Of a stretch of DNA of 46,751 bases, positions 1-46,268 are shown in pieces; the first letter of the stretch is position 1; each line of letters opens with the position of its first letter. The notes beneath the pieces were generated by a model, which saw nothing but the letters and a program-made list of their open reading frames with translations, searched no databases and was not told the DNA's origin. Origin of the DNA: a virus; the IMG/VR virus record IMGVR_UViG_3300046513_000276, positions 1-46,751 of that record; one strand, given 5' to 3'. A program made the position numbers and the translations under genes.

Positions 1-29
1 CGGTTTTTGGGGGGGGGGGGGGGGGGGGG
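1..29. other. Poly-G artefact at contig start
   Basis: The first 29 bases are CGGTTTTT followed by an unbroken run of G. The duplicate copy of this region near the window end has only five Gs here, then an intact reading frame. The run is best read as a sequencing or assembly artefact rather than phage sequence. Confidence 0.85.
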
Positions 30-291
30 CCGGTGCGGCGCCGCCGGCGGCATCCTGGGCCTGCTGGATCAGCGAGCGCTTCGGCGCCTGCCAGGTGGCC
101 AGGGCCGCGATAAAGTCGGCGTCGAACTCGGTCGGGGTGGCCAGCAGTGACAGCGGCTGCGGCAGGCTGGACTTCGCCTTCGCATCGAACGGCATCGGCG
201 TCACGTTGACGCGCAGCAGGTCGTCGCCCTCGGGCGCTATTGTGATCATGAGCGTCGCCTGTTTGGCGAGCGCGTGCAGAGTGGTGAACAT
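30..291 (-). CDS. PRTRC system protein E, N-terminal part (continues at 46751)
   Basis: Starting at ATG 291 (MFTTLHALAKQATLMITIAP...), this is the first part of a roughly 207-residue protein whose remainder is at 46751-46269. The N-terminal sequence resembles the PRTRC protein E family (TIGR03741), recognised from memory. Its biochemical role is unknown. Codons 1-47 lie at 291-151. From codon 48 on the sequence is the same as in the copy at the window end. Bases 1-29 break the frame only because of the poly-G artefact. It is followed by PRTRC C and preceded by three small genes in one leftward operon. Confidence 0.8.
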
Positions 292-319
292 CAGCGGTTC
301 CTCGTTGGGTGGTGGTGGG

Positions 320-508
320 TTAATCGTGGTCGTTGGCCTGGAGCTTTTTCAGGTCGACCTGGGCCCGGCGGCGCATGTGCCGGCGGGCGAGGGCGCGCAG
401 GACAACCTGAAGCGCCGGGATCCGGAGCATGTCGTCGAGCGAGGTGGTCGCGTGAAGCATGCGGTGGGCGATCTCGAGCGCGGCGCGGTCGGGTTCGATG
501 CGGACCAT
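320..508 (-). CDS. Small phage protein, 62 aa
   Basis: The ORF starts at ATG 508, just after the stop of the upstream gene (510), and ends 28 bases before PRTRC E. The C-terminal half is strongly basic (ARRHMRRRAQVDLKK). I do not recognise a family. It is the third gene of the leftward operon that begins at the OL-like promoter. The arginine-rich stretch could be an RNA- or DNA-binding segment, as in N-type antiterminators, but nothing else supports that reading. Longer in-frame starts upstream overlap the preceding gene and are less likely. Confidence 0.6.
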   Translation of the reverse strand: MVRIEPDRAALEIAHRMLHATTSLDDMLRIPALQVVLRALARRHMRRRAQVDLKKLQANDHD

Positions 509-509
509 G

Positions 510-797
510 TCACGCTCCGTCCGTTGAGGAGCTGTCGGATTCGCGGGGGCGCTTTTCGGCTTCGACATGCGCGCGCCAGATGCGGTGGCCTTCGTCGACG
601 CCGGCATAGAAGGCGTCCGCCTGCGCCGTTCCCATCGGGTGGGTACAGCGGACGCGTTCGCCCGTGGCGCGGTATTGCAGCACGGCGCGCACGCCTGCTT
701 TGTACTCCGCGCTGCGCGGATCGCGAGCGATGTTGAAGGCAGCATTGAACAACTGGTCGACCAGGTGGGCCGCCTTGGGGCTTTCAGCGGCCGCCAT
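510..797 (-). CDS. Hypothetical phage protein, 95 aa
   Basis: ATG 797 overlaps the stop of the 49-aa upstream gene in an ATGA junction, which fixes the start. The protein (MAAAESPKAAHLVDQLFNAA...) is soluble and charged, with no signal or membrane segment. It contains ARDPRSAEYKAGVRAVLQYR followed by CTHPMGTAQADAFYAG, a pattern seen in small hypothetical phage proteins. Function is unknown. It is co-transcribed with the flanking genes in the pL-like operon leading to the PRTRC genes. Confidence 0.7.
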   Translation of the reverse strand: MAAAESPKAAHLVDQLFNAAFNIARDPRSAEYKAGVRAVLQYRATGERVRCTHPMGTAQADAFYAGVDEGHRIWRAHVEAEKRPRESDSSSTDGA

Positions 798-946
798 CAG
801 CGCACCCCGGCCTTGACGGTGATGCCGCACGGCTGGTCGCCCAGCAGCTCGGCCGCCATCACGGCAGCGTCGCTGCTGGAGTGGGCCAGGGTGCTGAAGG
901 TCATGCAAGCGGTCGCGGTGCGTGCGGTGATGAGGAAGGGCTTCAT
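797..946 (-). CDS. Small phage protein, 49 aa, first gene of leftward operon
   Basis: This is the first gene downstream of the OL-like operator and promoter region, with ATG 946 preceded by a GGAG ribosome site. The sequence (MKPFLITARTATACMTFSTL... ending GDQPCGITVKAGVR) looks like a small family seen in other mobile elements, but I cannot name it. It overlaps the next gene by ATGA. Its place directly after the repressor-controlled promoter makes it an immediate-early gene. Function is unknown. Confidence 0.65.
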   Translation of the reverse strand: MKPFLITARTATACMTFSTLAHSSSDAAVMAAELLGDQPCGITVKAGVR

Positions 947-998
947 GCGATCTCCAGTTCGCGGCTCGGCGGGTGCTGAGCTCGCTGCGATGGAGTCA

Positions 999-1027
999 TA
1001 TTAAAGCTAACTTGAGTTTTAGGTCAA
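999..1027 (-). promoter_or_regulatory. pL-like early leftward promoter
   Basis: On the minus strand, TTGACC (1027-1022) is followed after 17 bases by TTAATA (1004-999), a good sigma70 match. The -35 lies within the middle operator copy and another copy lies between -35 and -10, so a bound repressor would block it. It drives the genes from 946 leftward, including the PRTRC cassette and int. Confidence 0.7.
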
Positions 1028-1060
1028 GTAGGCTTGAGAAAAATGTTCAAGTGAACTTGA
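1002..1060. promoter_or_regulatory. OL-like triple repressor operator
   Basis: Three 14-bp sites match TCAAG-N4-CTTGA: TAAAGCTAACTTGA (1002-1015, one mismatch), TCAAGTAGGCTTGA (1024-1037, exact) and TCAAGTGAACTTGA (1047-1060, exact). Start-to-start spacing is 22 and 23 bp, about two helical turns. The same motif and spacing occur between cI and cro. This is the arrangement expected for cooperative binding of a CI-type repressor at lambda-like OL and OR. Confidence 0.8.
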
Positions 1061-1125
1061 TGAGCGGGGAGGCGCTTAGACCCGTGTTGTCGAGTAGCTC
1101 GGCGCGCCGGCCCGGTGTCAGGGCG

Positions 1126-1148
1126 AAAAAAAGCCCGCGAGTGCGGGC
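1126..1148 (-). terminator. Rho-independent terminator of the cI operon
   Basis: On the minus strand, GCCCGC (1148-1143), loop ACTC, GCGGGC (1138-1133) is followed by seven Ts (1132-1126). It lies downstream of the KilA-N gene and closes the cI operon just before the OL-like region. A second hairpin with an 8-bp stem (1164-1171 with 1176-1183) precedes it without a T tract. Confidence 0.85.
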
Positions 1149-1186
1149 GTGAGGATGACGTGAGTTCCCGCGAGCGCGGGAACCAG

Positions 1187-1957
1187 TTACGGCTGTCCGG
1201 AGCTTCCCAGCAGTTTTGGAAGATAAGTTAGAGCGTTGACATCGCGACTCTGAAAATACGCCACTGCTTTCGTTGGAAGCCATACGTTATTAAAGTGAGC
1301 GCGAAAATCTGCCAGATACTCGTTTGGATAAAGTCGTGCATCGACAACTCTACCGTCAGTGTATCTATGCTTGTAGGTAGGAAATGCAGATGGGTCGACG
1401 CCTTTCTCCTTACGAATCCACGTCGAAAACATCTTCCCTTCTGAAATATCGGGAACCATACTTTCAGGCAATGTGTAGCCGTCAGCTTCGAGAGGAGCTA
1501 TCAGCCCGAAGGTCAATTCATTGAGCATCGAAAAGTGCGTTGCAGGTATTGCGTTTCGATTCACCATATAACGCTGGAGGTGCACGGGCATTTTGCTCCC
1601 GTTGCTTGCAGCTCCCCCGCCTGACATCCAGTCGGCTACCCACTGAGTTACCTGCACTGCAAATCTCGGGGATAGCCACTGCGCAAGGTGAATAGCTACC
1701 TGGGGATGAACCCAAGTGCCATGATGGTGATTCGAGAACACAAGCTGATCTTTTGTTAGACCAGTGTGCAATGAAAGTTCAGCAATAAATGCTTGCACAT
1801 GGTCGGCTGACCAATAGTGGTTCCATTGTTTCTTAACAGCTTGGCATAATGCCGTAGCATGTATATATCCATCAGCAGCGCGCTGATTGATCACCATACC
1901 CTCAGTCTGATGTTCAATTAATGCTAGCGAAAGTTGATTGCTCATTAGTTTCCCCAT
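1187..1957 (-). CDS. KilA-N domain protein
   Basis: The protein has 256 residues. Residues about 18-113 match the KilA-N domain, including ADGYIHATALCQAVKK and GTWVHPQVAIHLAQWL. KilA-N is a DNA-binding fold common in phages and large DNA viruses. The C-terminal half (from about residue 125) resembles the phage P63C-type domain. A second ATG at 1945 has a better ribosome site (GGGGA), so the true protein may be four residues shorter. It is the last gene of the cI operon, in the position of lambda rexB, and would be expressed in the lysogen. GC is clearly lower than in the phage core, which suggests recent acquisition. An antirepressor, lysogenic-conversion or superinfection-exclusion role is possible but unproven. 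Confidence 0.85.
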   Translation of the reverse strand: MGKLMSNQLSLALIEHQTEGMVINQRAADGYIHATALCQAVKKQWNHYWSADHVQAFIAELSLHTGLTKDQLVFSNHHHGTWVHPQVAIHLAQWLSPRFAVQVTQWVADWMSGGGAASNGSKMPVHLQRYMVNRNAIPATHFSMLNELTFGLIAPLEADGYTLPESMVPDISEGKMFSTWIRKEKGVDPSAFPTYKHRYTDGRVVDARLYPNEYLADFRAHFNNVWLPTKAVAYFQSRDVNALTYLPKLLGSSGQP

Positions 1958-1984
1958 TTCCCCGCCGCGAGCGGCGATTATTTT

Positions 1985-2341
1985 TTAGTAGCGTGTCCCC
2001 GTGACATTTTGTCGATACTTTGCTTTAAATGTCAGCTCTTTATCGTGGCACTGATCGGCTATTCTAGATATGTCGTCAGCTAGTTTGTTAGGGTCGCTGG
2101 CACTTTCCCAGCAACGAAATATGTCTGATCGTTCATTTTCGCGGTTTTTCGCTTCGGACTGCATATTGTCGTAGATAAGATAAGCGAAAAGTCCAATAGT
2201 TAATCCAACACCAAGCAACATTCCGAGCGCGACAGAAGACCAAGACTTATTTTTCTTGGGCTTAGCGCCACATTGAGGACAAATGACGGCTCGACTGCTA
2301 ATTACTGTTCCGCATTCGATACATGGCTGTAACGCCATCAC
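1985..2341 (-). CDS. Zinc-ribbon single-pass membrane protein
   Basis: The protein has 118 residues. The N terminus has two CxxC pairs (CIECG at about 7-11 and CPQCG at about 21-25), a zinc ribbon. One hydrophobic helix follows at about residues 35-58 (SSVALGMLLGVGLTIGLFAY), then a charged, probably helical tail with two more cysteines. It lies between the S24-like gene and the KilA-N gene in the cI operon, and its GC is low. A lysogen-expressed small membrane protein in the rex position is a candidate superinfection-exclusion factor. I know no characterised relative. Confidence 0.7.
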   Translation of the reverse strand: MMALQPCIECGTVISSRAVICPQCGAKPKKNKSWSSVALGMLLGVGLTIGLFAYLIYDNMQSEAKNRENERSDIFRCWESASDPNKLADDISRIADQCHDKELTFKAKYRQNVTGTRY

Positions 2342-2382
2342 TCCCTCCTTACTCTAGAACTTATTTTGGAGACAAAGGTTGG

Positions 2383-2823
2383 TTATAGGCGCCCAGTAAC
2401 CACACGACCAGGTTGATAAACTACACGGCCGACGACACTGCATTGCCCGCTCTTCATATTCACTGGGCCAAACTCTGGGTTGATTGGAGCCAGATACCAT
2501 TGCCCGCCGCGGTTCAACAACTGATATACGCATGCATCGCCGTTCCAGTTCACGGCAAACACCTCACGATTACGCATAGCAGTGTCTGCCGTATCGATGA
2601 CGATCCAGTCGTCCTCGAAGAACATCGGCTCCATGCCGCGATCACGGACGCGCATGGCCAACAACGTTGCCGGATTGACTTTGGCCGCCCGGACCACTGA
2701 CGTCGGGATGGCAAGCGGATCGAGCGTCGTCATGTCCGGCTCGGCGTCGAAGCCGGCCATGCCGGCCCGCAACCTCAGCATCACCCGGCGCACTTCCGTC
2801 AGCTGCAGGTCGGCCCCGTTCAT
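2383..2823 (-). CDS. S24/LexA-like domain protein lacking HTH and catalytic residues
   Basis: The 146-residue protein aligns with the C-terminal peptidase domain of the neighbouring CI (VRDRGMEPMFFEDDWIVID against RGESMSPRYLPGEFVGVD) but has no helix-turn-helix. The catalytic serine of the S24 dyad is glycine (G63), and the lysine position is tyrosine (Y100). It therefore looks unable to self-cleave but may keep the dimerisation surface. Its start codon overlaps the cI stop by four bases (ATGA), so the two are translationally coupled. A plausible role is to modulate CI by mixed dimers. The family assignment is from sequence; the role is inference. Confidence 0.75.
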   Translation of the reverse strand: MNGADLQLTEVRRVMLRLRAGMAGFDAEPDMTTLDPLAIPTSVVRAAKVNPATLLAMRVRDRGMEPMFFEDDWIVIDTADTAMRNREVFAVNWNGDACVYQLLNRGGQWYLAPINPEFGPVNMKSGQCSVVGRVVYQPGRVVTGRL

Positions 2824-3524
2824 TCGCCTGGCCGGAAAGCAATTTTGGGGATGTGGCCCAGCACCAGGTGTATTCGATCGATGCCTTCGCAGTCGATAAT
2901 GATGTTGGGGTGGTCCTTGTTTACCGACTCGAAGCAGGCCTGGTCATCCCGGATCCACAGGAGGCGCTTGATCATGCGACGCCCATCCTTCAATAGCACG
3001 ATCACCTCGTCACTCGGTTGTGGCTCTCCACAAGGATCGACGCCGACGAATTCTCCTGGAAGGTAACGCGGGCTCATACTTTCGCCACGGATGCGCAAGG
3101 CATAGGCGTCGGCGCACGTCGCGTACCAAAACAGGTACCCGTCTGGATGCTGGGCGTTGAAGTCGTCGATGTGCAGCAGCCCATCGGTGCCGGCCTGGAC
3201 ACGCCCGACCACAGGAATGAGTTGCGGCCGACGCATGATCGCTGGCGCGTCGTCAACCTCACTTTCCAGTTCCTGGGCCGCTTGCGACTGTGGCGTCGGA
3301 CTTCCTTCTCCCGTCTCCAGCCATAGCGCGTCTACCCTCAGGTAGCTGGCCAGCGCACGCGCCTTAGGTGCGTCGATGCCGTGGTCGCCCTTCAGCCAAT
3401 TTCCTACGGCGGTATCGGACACCCCAGCTGCGCGGGCCAGCTCAGCTTTGCTTACCCGCTTCCCGTTGCGCCGTGTCCGCTCACGCTCCATCGCCCAAGC
3501 GAGTCTTTCTGATAATAAATTCAT
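2820..3524 (-). CDS. cI: CI-type prophage repressor (HTH plus S24 peptidase)
   Basis: The protein has 234 residues. The HTH is at about residues 22-48 (VSKAELARAAGVSDTAVGNWL). The LexA/S24 domain carries an Ala111-Gly112 cleavage site in GRVQAG, catalytic Ser149 (RGESMSP) and Lys186 (RRMIKRLL). All parts needed for RecA-stimulated self-cleavage are present, so the prophage should be SOS-inducible. It diverges from cro across a region with up to four operator copies, one of which (3524-3537) touches its own start codon and suggests autoregulation. It should repress both pR (3559-3587) and the leftward promoter (999-1027). Confidence 0.93.
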   Translation of the reverse strand: MNLLSERLAWAMERERTRRNGKRVSKAELARAAGVSDTAVGNWLKGDHGIDAPKARALASYLRVDALWLETGEGSPTPQSQAAQELESEVDDAPAIMRRPQLIPVVGRVQAGTDGLLHIDDFNAQHPDGYLFWYATCADAYALRIRGESMSPRYLPGEFVGVDPCGEPQPSDEVIVLLKDGRRMIKRLLWIRDDQACFESVNKDHPNIIIDCEGIDRIHLVLGHIPKIAFRPGE

Positions 3525-3607
3525 AAAGGTAGCTTAACAAACCAGTTATCAAGCTGGCTTGACTTATGATCCAAGACAGCTTACGATCAAAACTAAAGTC
3601 AACTTGA
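3524..3607. promoter_or_regulatory. OR-like operator array between cI and cro
   Basis: Four sites resemble TCAAG-N4-CTTGA: TAAAGGTAGCTTAA (3524-3537, 8/10), TCAAGCTGGCTTGA (3549-3562, exact), CCAAGACAGCTTAC (3571-3584, 7/10) and TAAAGTCAACTTGA (3594-3607, 9/10). Spacing is 25, 22 and 23 bp. The last two intervals are the same pair of distances seen in the OL-like array. The sites cover the -35, spacer and start region of the rightward promoter. Confidence 0.78.
3559..3587 (+). promoter_or_regulatory. pR-like early rightward promoter
   Basis: TTGACT (3559-3564) and TACGAT (3582-3587) are separated by 17 bases, a good sigma70 pattern. The -35 overlaps the exact operator copy and the spacer contains the next one. 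Transcription would start about 25 bases before the cro ATG at 3616, which is preceded by GAGGA. Confidence 0.7.
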
Positions 3608-3615
3608 GGATTGAA

Positions 3616-3822
3616 ATGGACGCTACCGAGAACCCTACCGAAATCATCCAACGCCTGGGCGGCCCTACAAAGACCGCAGAGCTCTGCGAGGTCACCACTC
3701 AGGCTGTATGCCAGTGGCGGGAAAACGGTATTCCGAAGGCGCGCCTGAAGTTCCTCAAGCTGGCGCGCCCCGACGTATTTAAACCGGCCCAACCGCCATC
3801 GCCCGAATCTCAGCCGCAGTAA
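3616..3822 (+). CDS. cro: Cro/YdaS-type HTH regulator
   Basis: The 68-residue protein resembles YdaS-like Cro proteins: IIQRLGGPTKTAELCEVTTQAVCQWR is an HTH, followed by NGIPKARLKFLKL. ATG 3616 is chosen over an in-frame start at 3559 because it has a GAGGA site and leaves the operators outside the gene. It is the first rightward gene opposite cI and probably competes for the same operators to favour lytic growth. A terminator overlaps its stop codon. Confidence 0.85.
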   Translation: MDATENPTEIIQRLGGPTKTAELCEVTTQAVCQWRENGIPKARLKFLKLARPDVFKPAQPPSPESQPQ

Positions 3823-38969: not shown

Positions 38970-40217
38970 TCATTCGGTCGCCTTCGCGCGCCGCTCCATG
39001 CGCCGGTCGTAGTGCCGGTGCGTGGTCGCCGGGTTCGCGTGTGCCGCGAAGTCGTAGGCGTCCTCGCTCCGGTTTCGGAGCTTCGTCGTGATCGCGGCAG
39101 GCCGGACGTCGGACAGCGCGAAGTACTCTGGATGCTCGGTGATCTTATATCCCTCGTACGGCTCGATCGTCGTCTTGGATTTCCTGGCCGCCCGGTACCG
39201 GGCCTCCCATTCCCGCTTCGCCACCAGCGCGGCCGCCACCTCGCCATCGAACGAGGCGATCCAGTCGAACATTGCATCCGCCCACAACGACCCCCATCCG
39301 CTCTTTGTATAGGGCGTCCCCTTCGCGTTCGCGAACAGGAACATCCGGCTTGCCGTGTGCGCCTGCTTGGCCCTGGCCACCACGGTGCGCAGCCGCGGCG
39401 ACCACTCGCGCAGCTTCGTCACCTCGTCCTCGCCCATCTTCCGTTTCGCGCTGATCACGCGCACGCCTTCCTTCGCCAGTCCGGCAACGTGGAAGGGCCG
39501 CACCTCCGCCGCCCGGAATCCCGTGAGGTAGGTGAACATGCCGGCGCACCCCATGACCTGGTAGCCGGACGTCTGCCGGCGGGACCACAGGTAGAAGCGG
39601 ACCACCTGACTGCGGTAGATCGTCCGCACCTTCTTCTCGGTCCTGTTCTGCATCATGTCCGTGAATGGGTTCGCCTCCATCAGCCCCCAGCGCACGGCGT
39701 AATGGCAGATGGTCGACATTAGCGACAGCTCCTTGTTGGCCTTCGCCGGCGCACCGGCCTTCGCGCGCGCGTCGAGGTACTGGTACCCGTGCAGCGTCTT
39801 GAGGGCCATCGGTCGCATGGCGCCGAAGAACTTCGTCAGGTTGGCGTAGGTGCCGGTGCGCACGGCCAGGCCGTCCTTCGACTGGTCCCGGTAGTGGGTG
39901 GGCGCCACCTCGTCGCGGAAGCGTTCGATCATCTCGGCCACAGAGCCGGCCACGACCACGCCCTGCTGGATGTCCAGTGCCTTGCGCTTCGCGCTACGCT
40001 CGGCGTCGGCGATCGCCTTCCGGTCGCCGAGCGGCGCGCTGGCCAAAGTCTCGCTAGTATTGTCCGGATGCTGGTAATACCAGGAGACCTTGCGCTTCCC
40101 GATTCTTTTATACAGGCGGTCGATCCCGGTGCGCTCCTTACTGGAAGGCGCTGAGGTTTGGTGTTTCGGCATATCGCGATCGCGTCGTCTCTTCGGAAAT
40201 TCCCATTTTCTTGTCAT
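38970..40217 (-). CDS. int: Phage integrase (tyrosine recombinase) next to attP
   Basis: The 415-residue protein has the catalytic pattern Arg235 (TGFRAAEVR), Arg372 (SDVRPAAITTKL) with the usual His-x-x-Arg reduced to Asp-x-x-Arg or shifted, His393 or His400, and Tyr403 (HRHYDRR). A core-binding domain lies at about 90-190. Start 40217 overlaps the upstream gene by 80 bases; ATG 40172 (MPKHQTSAPS) is an alternative. It is last in the leftward operon and adjacent to attP, so it is the likely integration enzyme. Confidence 0.9.
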   Translation of the reverse strand: MTRKWEFPKRRRDRDMPKHQTSAPSSKERTGIDRLYKRIGKRKVSWYYQHPDNTSETLASAPLGDRKAIADAERSAKRKALDIQQGVVVAGSVAEMIERFRDEVAPTHYRDQSKDGLAVRTGTYANLTKFFGAMRPMALKTLHGYQYLDARAKAGAPAKANKELSLMSTICHYAVRWGLMEANPFTDMMQNRTEKKVRTIYRSQVVRFYLWSRRQTSGYQVMGCAGMFTYLTGFRAAEVRPFHVAGLAKEGVRVISAKRKMGEDEVTKLREWSPRLRTVVARAKQAHTASRMFLFANAKGTPYTKSGWGSLWADAMFDWIASFDGEVAAALVAKREWEARYRAARKSKTTIEPYEGYKITEHPEYFALSDVRPAAITTKLRNRSEDAYDFAAHANPATTHRHYDRRMERRAKATE

Positions 40218-42514: not shown

Positions 42515-43273
42515 TTACTGAATAGGGGCGGCCGGCTCGCGCACGTTCATCGGCCGCATGCTGCCGGTGCGCAGGTTCACGAACGCGCCATGCCAGGTCA
42601 GCTTCCCGTGGCGGAAGAACTCCCACAGGATCGAAAGGGCCGGCGTCACAATCGACTGGTTCACGAACAGCTCCTGGCGCTCGAGCGCCTCGGCCAGGCC
42701 GCAGCTGGGCGTGTCGTCTTCCTTGGCCTGCAGGTCGACCAGCTCCGGCAGCACGTCGTAGGGGCTCGGCAGCAGCACGCTGTCCGCCGGCGCCTGCAGG
42801 CCGGCGCGCCCTGTGAATAACTCGCCGAGCAGCACCTGGCCGTCGGCCGCGCGGTTCCCGAGGTCCATCAGGTAGTGCACGCCGCTGCGCCGCAGCTTGT
42901 GGTGGATCTCGTGGCGGGCCCGCGCGCTGTCGACGCAGGCGATCGCCATACCGAACTGGAGGTGGCCGTTGTCGTCGAAGCGGCTGTGCACCGCTTCCCA
43001 GCCCAGCCCGAAGAAGGCATTGATTCGGTTGACCAGGACGTGCGCCTTGCTCGCGCCGACGTCGAAGGCGCCGAACAGCTGGCGGCCCATGTTGGCCTCG
43101 CTGACGGTGTCCGGGTCGTACGCTTTCACGTGCAGGCCCGGGTGGCCCAGCGCCGTAATGGCGTGGTTGAGCCGGGCCAGGCCGGTCAGCATCTGCGATC
43201 CGTTGCCGCCGCAGCCGATCAGGGCGATGCGCACCGGGTGGCTCAGCATGGTTGATGGCGTGATGTGTGGCAT
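42515..43273 (-). CDS. PRTRC system ThiF-family (E1-like) protein
   Basis: The 252-residue protein has the E1/ThiF nucleotide motif GCGGNGS (20-26), an acidic strand end (VKAYDPDTVSEANMGRQLF) and the ACVDSARAR segment. Cys191 (DTPSCGLAEALERQ) is a candidate catalytic cysteine. E1-like enzymes adenylate the C terminus of ubiquitin-like proteins. ATG 43273 is chosen at the start of this domain, four bases from the stop of protein A. It ends with RTGSMRPMNV, a segment partly duplicated at 42091-42134. Confidence 0.9.
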   Translation of the reverse strand: MPHITPSTMLSHPVRIALIGCGGNGSQMLTGLARLNHAITALGHPGLHVKAYDPDTVSEANMGRQLFGAFDVGASKAHVLVNRINAFFGLGWEAVHSRFDDNGHLQFGMAIACVDSARARHEIHHKLRRSGVHYLMDLGNRAADGQVLLGELFTGRAGLQAPADSVLLPSPYDVLPELVDLQAKEDDTPSCGLAEALERQELFVNQSIVTPALSILWEFFRHGKLTWHGAFVNLRTGSMRPMNVREPAAPIQ

Positions 43274-43277
43274 GGGG

Positions 43278-44051
43278 TCACCCGAAGATTTTCTCGGCTG
43301 GCACGTTGATCGGGATGTACAGGCCGAGCACGCACAGCCGGAACGCCACCGTCGGCTTGTCCGTGTCCAGGTTCCCGAAGACGGCCGAGATCTTGACCGA
43401 GCCGCGGTCGTCCTCGTCGTCGGTCGTGCTGAAGAAGGCGCCGAGGTGCCCGTGGCTGTGCAGGTCGATCGCCACGCTCTCGTCGGGCCCGGGCTCAACC
43501 TGGTGGTACTGGATTCTGCTGGCGCTCGCCTCACCGATGATGTCCGGGTACTCGGTTCGCCACGCCTTCTTCCTGTGGTCCCAGAGCAGGGCGGCCGCGG
43601 CCTCGATCGGCGCGTCCGCCTTGGCCTTGACCGCGAATTCCTTCATCTGCGCCAGCGCGCTGCCGATCGAGCCGAAGTCCAGTTCGCACTTGCCCTTGAT
43701 GGCGCCGTACGGCATCGCGACTGCCGTCTGCTTCGCCAGCTGGTGGATATAGTGCAGCCAGGGCCGGCGCACTTCCAGGTACAGCCCGTCCTCGGCCAGC
43801 AGGAAGCGGTGGCCGTTCTCCTGCAACGGGTGGAACGGAGCGTGGCGCGGCACGGCGGCGACCGGCGCGGCCGCCAGCAGGGCCATGTCCATCTGCAGCT
43901 GCTCGGGCGCCGCGTTCTCCTCGTCCACGGCCAGGGGCAGCGGGCGCTGTTCGCGCAGCACGGCGTCGGTGGTGGTCAGAAAGGTTTCGAACGAGGCGCG
44001 GGTGATCTGGAGCAGCTCGTCGAACTTGGTGGTGATTTCGTGGTTATTCAT
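43278..44051 (-). CDS. PRTRC system protein A, JAMM/JAB metallopeptidase-like
   Basis: The 257-residue protein has a C-terminal HSHGHLGAFFSTTD (198-211), an exact H-x-H-x7-S-x2-D JAMM zinc motif, with an upstream Glu in PDIIGEASAS. JAMM peptidases remove ubiquitin-like modifiers or process their precursors. The N-terminal half, starting MNNHEITTKFDELLQITRAS, is helical. It lies between E2-like B and E1-like ThiF. The TIGR03735 family is recalled from memory; the motif is seen directly. Confidence 0.9.
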   Translation of the reverse strand: MNNHEITTKFDELLQITRASFETFLTTTDAVLREQRPLPLAVDEENAAPEQLQMDMALLAAAPVAAVPRHAPFHPLQENGHRFLLAEDGLYLEVRRPWLHYIHQLAKQTAVAMPYGAIKGKCELDFGSIGSALAQMKEFAVKAKADAPIEAAAALLWDHRKKAWRTEYPDIIGEASASRIQYHQVEPGPDESVAIDLHSHGHLGAFFSTTDDEDDRGSVKISAVFGNLDTDKPTVAFRLCVLGLYIPINVPAEKIFG

Positions 44052-44066
44052 GTCTACCTCTTCTAA

Positions 44067-44807
44067 TTAGATGGTGGTGCGTTCGGCGATGCGGGCGATC
44101 GCCTCCCGCAGGGTTTCTTTCGAGTCGACAAGCGCGCGGCGCATCCTCTCCGGATCGGGGTTGGCCAGCTGATCGCGCCAGAGCTGCTCCATGCCGCCCT
44201 TGTGCTTGACCGCGTTGCCGCGGTTCGGGTGGGTGAAGTGGCTGCGGAAGAATGCGCGCTCATAGCTGTGGATAACTTCAGCGCCGAAGGTCGGCGGCAG
44301 TTCGACGTTGCCGGTGCAGATGCGGCCGCCGTCCCACACGTTGAAGTGGGGCGAGTGGTGCAGCCGCGTTGCCGGCGCCGGCCGGGTGTTGTCACGCAGA
44401 GCGAACACGAACCAGTCGTTCGGCGTCGCGACGAACACCAGGGCCGGGTGCGCGGCCAGGCCGTGGCCATCGATCTTGCCGGTGCCGGCCGGCTTGAACC
44501 AGGTCATGCGCACCTGCGCCGGCGTCCACCAGGCGATGAGGTTCGGGGAGCTGAACAGCAGGTTCTCAGGCAGGAATCCCGAGAACGCCGTCGCGGCGCC
44601 GACCGCGTTCGCAAACTTGGCCAGGCCGCCCTTCGTCAGCGGCACGCCGGCGCCGATGACCTTGCGGTGCGGGTGCTGGGCGTCCGGCACGGCGGGGTTC
44701 GACGTGGCGTACACGTCGCCGCGGTCCGACTGGTACATCAGCACGGCGCCGACCAGGTTCAGCACCGTTTCGCCGGCGCCGAGGATTTTCACTTGGTGAA
44801 GGCTCAA
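44067..44807 (-). CDS. PRTRC system protein B (E2-like)
   Basis: The protein has 246 residues from TTG 44807, which overlaps the stop of F (TTGA), or 241 from GTG 44792. It contains ETVLNLVGAVLMYQSDRGDV, NLIAWWTPAQVRMTWFK and NVWDGGRICTGNVELPPTFG. Cys164 in GRICTGNV fits the conserved cysteine of the Prok-E2_D family that, from memory, includes PRTRC B. An E2-like transfer role is inferred. Confidence 0.85.
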   Translation of the reverse strand: MSLHQVKILGAGETVLNLVGAVLMYQSDRGDVYATSNPAVPDAQHPHRKVIGAGVPLTKGGLAKFANAVGAATAFSGFLPENLLFSSPNLIAWWTPAQVRMTWFKPAGTGKIDGHGLAAHPALVFVATPNDWFVFALRDNTRPAPATRLHHSPHFNVWDGGRICTGNVELPPTFGAEVIHSYERAFFRSHFTHPNRGNAVKHKGGMEQLWRDQLANPDPERMRRALVDSKETLREAIARIAERTTI

Positions 44808-45856
44808 AATTTCTCTCCCAGCAGCAGGATCAGCTGTTCGGTCAGCACCGCGACCTCGATGGTCTGCTCGGTGAGCGTCATGAATTCGCGGACGCCGTCG
44901 GCGGTCATCGGCACCGGGTTGGCGTCGATGAAGTCGCAGTACTCTCCGCAGTTGCCGATATCTTCCAGGTAGTCGTCGATCGTCTGGCCAATCACGTCGT
45001 ATTGCTTCCAGAGCAGGACCATGCAGCCGTCGATGTTGTAATTGTTGCAGCGATGCACGCCCTTGTCGGCCGGATGCAGCACGAAGCCCGGGCGGTTGAC
45101 CAGGGCGTGCATCTCGTCGCACAGCTTGATCGCGCGGCGCGCGAAGTCGTTGGTGCCGGCATCCTCGACGTCGGCCCGGGATAGCACGCGCCGAGGCGCG
45201 CATACCCATTCGGGCATCTCGGCGTAGAACATGGCCCGCGTGATTACATGCTCGCTCTCCAGCAGATCTTGCACAGTCGCGTACTGGCCGCCCTCGCGCC
45301 GCAGTTCGAGCAGCTCGACGTCGTCTTGCGTGTCCTGCCAGTAGGCCTGGTCGGCCCAGTCGAGCGCAAACCACGGGTTGAACGACTCGGGCAGCAGCAT
45401 CGTGGCGTCGCGCAGCACGGCGAGCACGGTCTGGCCGAAGCCTTCCCGCAGCAGTTCCAGCCGCTCGATGCCGGGCGCGAGGGCGAAGCGCGGGATATCG
45501 CCGTCGATGCGGGTGAAGCAGAACCAGGCCGTAGTCGCTGTATCGTAGTTCGTGTCTTCCAACTGTTGCACGTGCAGGCTCCAGCGGAAGAATTTGCACG
45601 GCTGGGCCCGGATCAGGCGCGTCCACCAGTGCGCCAGCGCACGCTCCGACAGCTGCTTCTCCTGTTCGCCGAAGACGTCGACCAGCAGCGCGTTGCGCGG
45701 CGTGCGCAGCATTGCGTCGCTGATCACGCCGGCTTCGAGAAGGGCGATCGTCAGCGGCACCGCAAGGGCGTCGACGCCGGCCACGGTGTAGCGCAGCGGG
45801 ATCTCCGGCGCGAGCTGCGGCAGGGCCAGGACGGAAGCGGGCAGCATGGCGGTCAC
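44804..45856 (-). CDS. PRTRC system protein F
   Basis: The 350-residue protein is recognised as PRTRC F from gene order and sequence (LRTPRNALLVDVFGEQEKQL, FGQTVLAVLRDATMLLPESF, PADKGVHRCNNYNIDGCMVL). It is all soluble, without a clear enzymatic motif. It overlaps C upstream and B downstream by four bases each, so synthesis of the three is coupled. Biochemical role unknown. Confidence 0.82.
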   Translation of the reverse strand: MTAMLPASVLALPQLAPEIPLRYTVAGVDALAVPLTIALLEAGVISDAMLRTPRNALLVDVFGEQEKQLSERALAHWWTRLIRAQPCKFFRWSLHVQQLEDTNYDTATTAWFCFTRIDGDIPRFALAPGIERLELLREGFGQTVLAVLRDATMLLPESFNPWFALDWADQAYWQDTQDDVELLELRREGGQYATVQDLLESEHVITRAMFYAEMPEWVCAPRRVLSRADVEDAGTNDFARRAIKLCDEMHALVNRPGFVLHPADKGVHRCNNYNIDGCMVLLWKQYDVIGQTIDDYLEDIGNCGEYCDFIDANPVPMTADGVREFMTLTEQTIEVAVLTEQLILLLGEKF

Positions 45857-46257
45857 GGCAGCACCGAGTGGTTCACGGACGGCGCGAGGCAGCGCGGGCC
45901 GGTGGCGCGGCGGTGCTGGTCGATGAGGCGCTTCAGCTCTTGGCCCAGGGGCGTGCGGCCCTGCTCGGCAGTGATGGCATGTGCCGGGCGCAGCTCCGGC
46001 ACCAGCCGTCCGCCAGCGCGCAGGCGCTGCAGCGCGACCTCGCGCGTCAGGCCAGCGCCCTTGGTACCGACGGCGCGGCGGAACGTGTAGATCACCTTGG
46101 CGCCCAGCTGCTCGGGGCCTTCAATGTCGGCGCTGGTGATCTCCGGATAGACGTTGGCGTAGAAGTCTCGCACCTGGGGCAGGCTGAGCGCCGGCGCCGG
46201 ATCCGCCAGCACGACGCCGTTGTAACGGAATTCACGGGTAAGGTTCTGGATGTCCAT
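45853..46257 (-). CDS. PRTRC system protein C, ubiquitin-like, with C-terminal extension
   Basis: The protein has 134 residues. Residues 1-67 match the Prok_Ub/PRTRC C fold (EFRYNGVVLADPAPALSLPQ, VRDFYANVYPEITSADIEGP, KVIYTFRRAVGTKG). From memory this family is normally only about 70 residues and ends near the glycine at position 67. Here another 67 residues follow, mostly helical and basic (AGLTREVALQRLRAGGRLVP, GQELKRLIDQHRRATG). The extension may be removed by the JAMM protein to expose Gly67, or it may be a fused domain. Confidence 0.88.
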   Translation of the reverse strand: MDIQNLTREFRYNGVVLADPAPALSLPQVRDFYANVYPEITSADIEGPEQLGAKVIYTFRRAVGTKGAGLTREVALQRLRAGGRLVPELRPAHAITAEQGRTPLGQELKRLIDQHRRATGPRCLAPSVNHSVLP

Positions 46258-46268
46258 GCTGGCTCCGG

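Follow-up and report, generated by a model that had tools for sequence, protein, structure and literature searches.

Candidate OL and OR operator arrays around the cI gene of a probable temperate phage, with a PRTRC cassette in the predicted left operon

What do two small arrays of palindromes on either side of a phage cI gene control when a PRTRC cassette lies beyond one of them? The question is raised by IMG/VR virus record IMGVR_UViG_3300046513_000276, the whole 46,751-nucleotide stretch of which is called the window here. A preliminary description of this DNA had proposed a lambda-like OL/OR system with the PRTRC operon under the prophage repressor. The two arrays are very probably OL and OR in a temperate phage whose regulation is of the P22/lambda kind, closer to P22. 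It is considered highly likely that they form a switch in which CI and Cro would bind both arrays and CI would repress PL and PR, the PRTRC cassette included. The switch itself is of a well-known kind and its cargo is unusual. The arrays, their conservation, their overlap with promoters, their co-variation with Cro and CI and the continuity of the left operon were all computed.

Sites resembling the 14-bp palindrome TCAAG-N4-CTTGA, six strong and one degenerate, were located in two arrays, 1002-1060 (OL/PL) and 3524-3607 (OR/PR), the motif being present three times in the first and up to four times in the second as had been described (Table 1). Three copies are perfect, and the arrays lie about 2.5 kb apart, again as claimed. 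The start-to-start intervals are 22 and 23 bp in OL and 25, 22 and 23 bp in OR, so that the matching 22 and 23 bp intervals noted earlier are found in both arrays and OR has one of 25 bp as well. Both arrays overlap a sigma70-like promoter. The rightward promoter was recovered as first described; for the leftward one, given earlier as TTGACC-17-TTAATA, the scanner prefers a spacer of 18 and another -10 box. At the register of the degenerate site, GTAAG-N4-CTTGA is kept in four related loci (L006, L010, L014 and L050, the last a prophage of Massilia sp. YIM B02769). A putative PRM extended -10 element, TGTTAAGCT, was recognized by inspection and is overlapped by the outermost OR site. Between the two arrays all genes are on the minus strand and encode CI, a second S24 protein that has no HTH domain, a zinc-ribbon protein and a BstA-like KilA-N protein. 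The cro gene begins immediately to the right of the OR array, so that OR is flanked by divergent cI (HTH and S24 domains) and cro.

Table 1. Operator sites, promoters and genes of the predicted switch and left operon (window coordinates)
Feature	Position	Strand	Sequence or domain	Remarks	Matrix rank
PL operon start	1..946	-		three small ORFs and first part of PRTRC_E	
PL promoter	998..1027	-	TTGACC-18-TAATAT	only promoter-like match in 1-1100	
OL site, 1 mismatch	1002..1015		TAAAGCTAACTTGA	adjoins/overlaps PL -10 box	1
OL site, perfect	1024..1037		TCAAGTAGGCTTGA	overlaps PL -35 box	5
OL site, perfect	1047..1060		TCAAGTGAACTTGA	upstream of PL	4
BstA-like KilA-N protein	1187..1957	-	phrog_6287 (6.4e-59), KilA-N match	downstream of cI	
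HTH-less S24 protein	2383..2823	-		overlaps cI stop codon (ATGA)	
CI repressor	2820..3524	-	HTH and S24 peptidase domain	HTH nearest P22 c2 in PDB	
Outermost OR site, 2 mismatches	3524..3537		TAAAGGTAGCTTAA	overlaps CI start codon; kept in relatives	6
OR site, perfect	3549..3562		TCAAGCTGGCTTGA	overlaps PR -35 box	3
PR promoter	3559..3587	+	TTGACT-17-TACGAT		
Degenerate OR site, CCAAG-N4-CTTAC	3571..3584		CCAAGACAGCTTAC	shares bases with PR -10 box	8
OR site, 1 mismatch	3594..3607		TAAAGTCAACTTGA	at expected PR transcript start	2
Cro	3616..3822	+	probable P22_Cro-type HTH	recognition helix VTTQAVCQW	
Integrase-like ORF	38970..40217	-	XerC 1.9e-4, Phage_int_M 0.0054, both below curated cut-offs	far end of PL operon	
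PL operon rest	42515..46751	-	C (Prok_Ub), F, B (Prok-E2_D), A (JAB), ThiF (E1-like)	includes PRTRC_E remainder	

Could such arrays arise by chance, or from their promoters, since -35 boxes contain TTGA and halves of the motif would recur there with coincidental spacing? There are indeed two sites that overlap -35 boxes, and single sites with up to two mismatches are no commoner in the window than expected (10 found, 12 expected), 6 of the 10 falling in the two arrays. No perfect copy was found outside the arrays, so the motif is not frequent elsewhere in the window; the reversed control pattern has no perfect copy at all. A position matrix trained on relatives only and run over the 46.7 kb placed the six strong sites at ranks 1-6. 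The triple-array scores of 60.5 and 52.7 are far beyond the maximum of 12.2 reached in 1000 local Markov simulations, and the arrays are kept at both ends in 18 related loci though the DNA between them changes. The simulation and this conservation refute an origin by chance or from the promoters, to which next to no probability is given.

The relatives were gathered by CI and Cro searches and comprise viral contigs and two Massilia prophages. Eighteen phage or prophage loci, some of them closely related to each other, have two clusters of the same type, one at cI-cro and one beyond cI, with no third in the stretch examined. The distance from OL to OR in these loci is 1.1-3.5 kb and different genes lie between. 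In the viral records searched, the exact pattern TYAAG-N4-CTTRA is confined to the arrays where these exist (eight records) and is absent from three records that have a different CI. In two Massilia genomes with related prophages its frequency does not exceed that of the reversed control. When cultured phages were searched at the DNA level, only stretches matching the bstA-like gene were returned.

Which protein would read these sites? Where the operator sequence changes, it does so at both OR and OL, and the changes go along with those in the recognition helix of Cro and, for the most part, in that of CI. The Cro residue before AVSQW tracks the half-site: TCAAG is preferred with Q and TTAAG with A, while TTTAG goes with G or S, and Cro proteins at least 70% alike still differ concordantly with the half-site. 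In the CI helix, TCAAG loci have G where TTAAG loci have N, S or T; L081 is the one exception. L084 and L098 gave no clear assignment, and L076 tied on its OR score in the first, argmax classification of half-sites. In a recount that ignored positions 2 and 3 when finding sites, position 2 was C in 45% of the half-sites for Q Cro proteins and T in 65% for A Cro proteins; position 3 was T in about 70% for G/S Cro proteins and A in at least 90% for the others. The C/T preference at position 2 is thus quantitative, not absolute. As cited in PMC4488713, Hall, Lefevre and Cordes (2005) found that Cro recognition helices correlate with OR half-sites. The helix residue tracks the half-site here in the same way; compared with what is cited of that work, the phages here are unstudied and mostly uncultured, and OL shifts along with OR.

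The co-variation points to both CI and Cro as binders of the array sites; because both change together, the comparison does not separate one from the other as binder, nor does it give the order in which sites would be used. The array sites might serve only Cro or another small regulator, with CI using other sites, in which case the arrays would not be immunity operators. The half-site correlates more strictly with the helix residue of Cro than with that of CI, which has the exception L081. However, the arrays overlap the start of cI itself as well as PR, and P22 c2 is annotated as binding the same kind of array. In addition, loss of the motif is accompanied by a different CI HTH, though Cro differs there too: in L008, L009 and L011 the motif is gone and CI keeps its C-terminal domain with a different HTH. 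Sites reserved for Cro or another small regulator are accordingly very improbable, and binding by both CI and Cro is preferred.

The likeness to P22 extends to the proteins. The nearest PDB relative of the CI HTH is P22 c2, although the similarity is weak (E 0.02). Cro matches PF14549 (P22_Cro) with E 6.3e-7 and 29.5 bits, just under the cut-off of 30.2, its profile matches P22 Cro 1rzs (E 0.0011), and P22 Cro is among the nearest structures. P22 also served as a positive control: its annotated OL and OR carry sites of the TTAAG-N4-CTTAA type with intervals of 25 and 23 in OR, and DAAVSQW, the helix of its Cro, obeys the rule relating helix and half-site. P22 immC and the window thus share arrays at PL and PR around cI, the OR intervals of 25 and 23, a Cro probably of P22_Cro type and a CI whose HTH is nearest to c2. 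There are differences. The operator core of the window has C at position 2 where P22 has T, although close relatives have the T form; OR has four sites, one of them degenerate, and not three; and OL lies roughly 2.5 kb from OR, the interval holding the BstA-like, zinc-ribbon and second S24 genes, as against about 0.7 kb in P22. The window, unlike P22, has a PRTRC cassette in its left operon and no recognised N/nut; no N-like family match was found among the first small PL ORFs.

In lambda, two arrays about 2.4 kb apart overlap promoters and the left operon ends in the integrase gene. The window resembles lambda in its two distant arrays, the promoter overlap and a left operon that reads towards an integrase-like gene; it differs in operator sequence and in the fold class of Cro. 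Here, as in lambda and P22, the two early promoters flanking cI each have several palindromic operators that resemble one another. The earlier term lambda-like holds for the paired operator arrays at PL and PR, whereas the CI nearest c2 and the probably P22_Cro-type Cro bring the system nearer to P22.

PL reads left through three small ORFs and PRTRC_E, across the contig join, through C, F, B, A and ThiF, and continues in the direction of the integrase-like ORF. The operon is continuous across the join because the contig ends overlap exactly over about 120 bp (positions 1-150 and 46630-46751), and the genome is circular. The end repeat is unlisted for the record, and there is a poly-G artefact at the left end of the contig. 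The cassette comprises E, C, F, B (as Prok-E2_D), A and ThiF in one operon; the PRTRC ParB component was not identified in it. In three relatives (contigs G001, G002 and G017) PRTRC genes also lie downstream of PL in the same direction, and three others have RecT in the PL operon instead. When both families were searched for in 12 contigs, PRTRC_C was present in four and RecT in three, one of these slightly below the cut-off; no contig had the two together. PRTRC genes stand in the PL operon of some related phages (L004, L005, L060) and RecT genes in that of others (L007, L016, L053). The earlier placing of the PRTRC operon under the prophage repressor is supported by its same-strand position after PL, by the continuity and by the three relatives, and CI is predicted to keep the cassette off in the lysogen, with expression early in lytic growth.

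Even if the arrays are real operators, the cassette could be under regulation of its own and active in the lysogen, where it might serve in defence or maintenance. Most descriptions of PRTRC cassettes come from plasmids and integrative elements, and promoters of other types would escape the sigma70-like scan. Within the PL operon, however, neither a further sigma70-like promoter nor a minus-strand terminator-like site was found, and the cassette stands downstream of PL in the three relatives too. Separate regulation is considered unlikely, and repression of the cassette by CI is preferred. A more specific suggestion is tentative: the Ub-like, E2, E1 and JAB proteins of PRTRC may be an early lytic module, off in the lysogen and on at induction, in the place that RecT-type recombination genes have in sister phages. 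Early lytic expression would point to phage replication or takeover of the host as its role and not to a prophage-borne defence.

PRTRC_C matches were found in only 2 of 50,697 cultured phage records. In Burkholderia phage BgVeeders33 (L150:5098-5390) the match is in an operon preceded by different repeats. This phage is without the TCAAG-N4-CTTGA motif; upstream of its PRTRC_C operon a 16-nt direct repeat with a spacing of 25 bp lies around a TTGACA.

How would the switch work? Binding, cooperativity, looping and the timing of expression are what we infer from the arrangement of genes and sites. In the lysogen, CI dimers on the TYAAG-N4-CTTRA sites of both arrays would shut off PL and PR, and the PRTRC cassette would be silenced with PL. 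It is plausible that neighbouring CI dimers, 22-25 bp or about two helical turns apart, cooperate. Looping between OL and OR is possible; over 2.5 kb it does not follow from kinship with P22, because OL and OR of P22 are only about 0.7 kb apart. On SOS induction CI would be cleaved, as its S24 family suggests, and Cro and the early genes would be made, PL reading into the PRTRC cassette and then towards the integrase-like gene. During lytic growth Cro on the same sites would lower transcription of cI and from the early promoters, in the case of cI probably via the outermost OR site, the one that overlaps the start of cI.

As a switch in phages of Massilia-like bacteria, the locus is compact and open to test. 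It also offers a set of contigs in which the operators and both repressors appear to have shifted their specificity together, in OL no less than in OR. For a poorly understood ubiquitin-like cassette it predicts a time of expression, which would be early lytic growth and not the dormant prophage. It is the regulated cargo, a rare ubiquitin-like PRTRC cassette, rather than the switch that deserves attention.

Two of the genes between the arrays have features of their own. In the HTH-less S24 protein GMEP replaces the catalytic SMSP (Ser to Gly) in the window and in six relatives. The position of the catalytic Lys is Tyr in the window and Tyr, Asn, Gln or Leu across the seven copies aligned. The protein is under purifying selection, as far as dS is unsaturated, and it is similar to the C-terminal domain of the L051 CI. 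A possible role is the modification of CI oligomers. The BstA-like protein covers positions 8-279 of 304 of the phrog_6287 profile and has the KilA-N and C-terminal domains of the BstA family; among 13 records searched its gene is present only in the window. In the BstA abortive-infection locus (PMC8585504) a KilA-N family protein is encoded downstream of the prophage repressor, and the window shares both the family and the place. Paired CCCGCC repeats of an aba-like element were not found, a single CCCGCC being present within 1801-2100. Finally, a predicted hairpin at 935-985 on the minus strand, at the expected start of the PL transcript, pairs CTCCA with the TGGAG of the first Shine-Dalgarno sequence, and by folding it is seen in many relatives.
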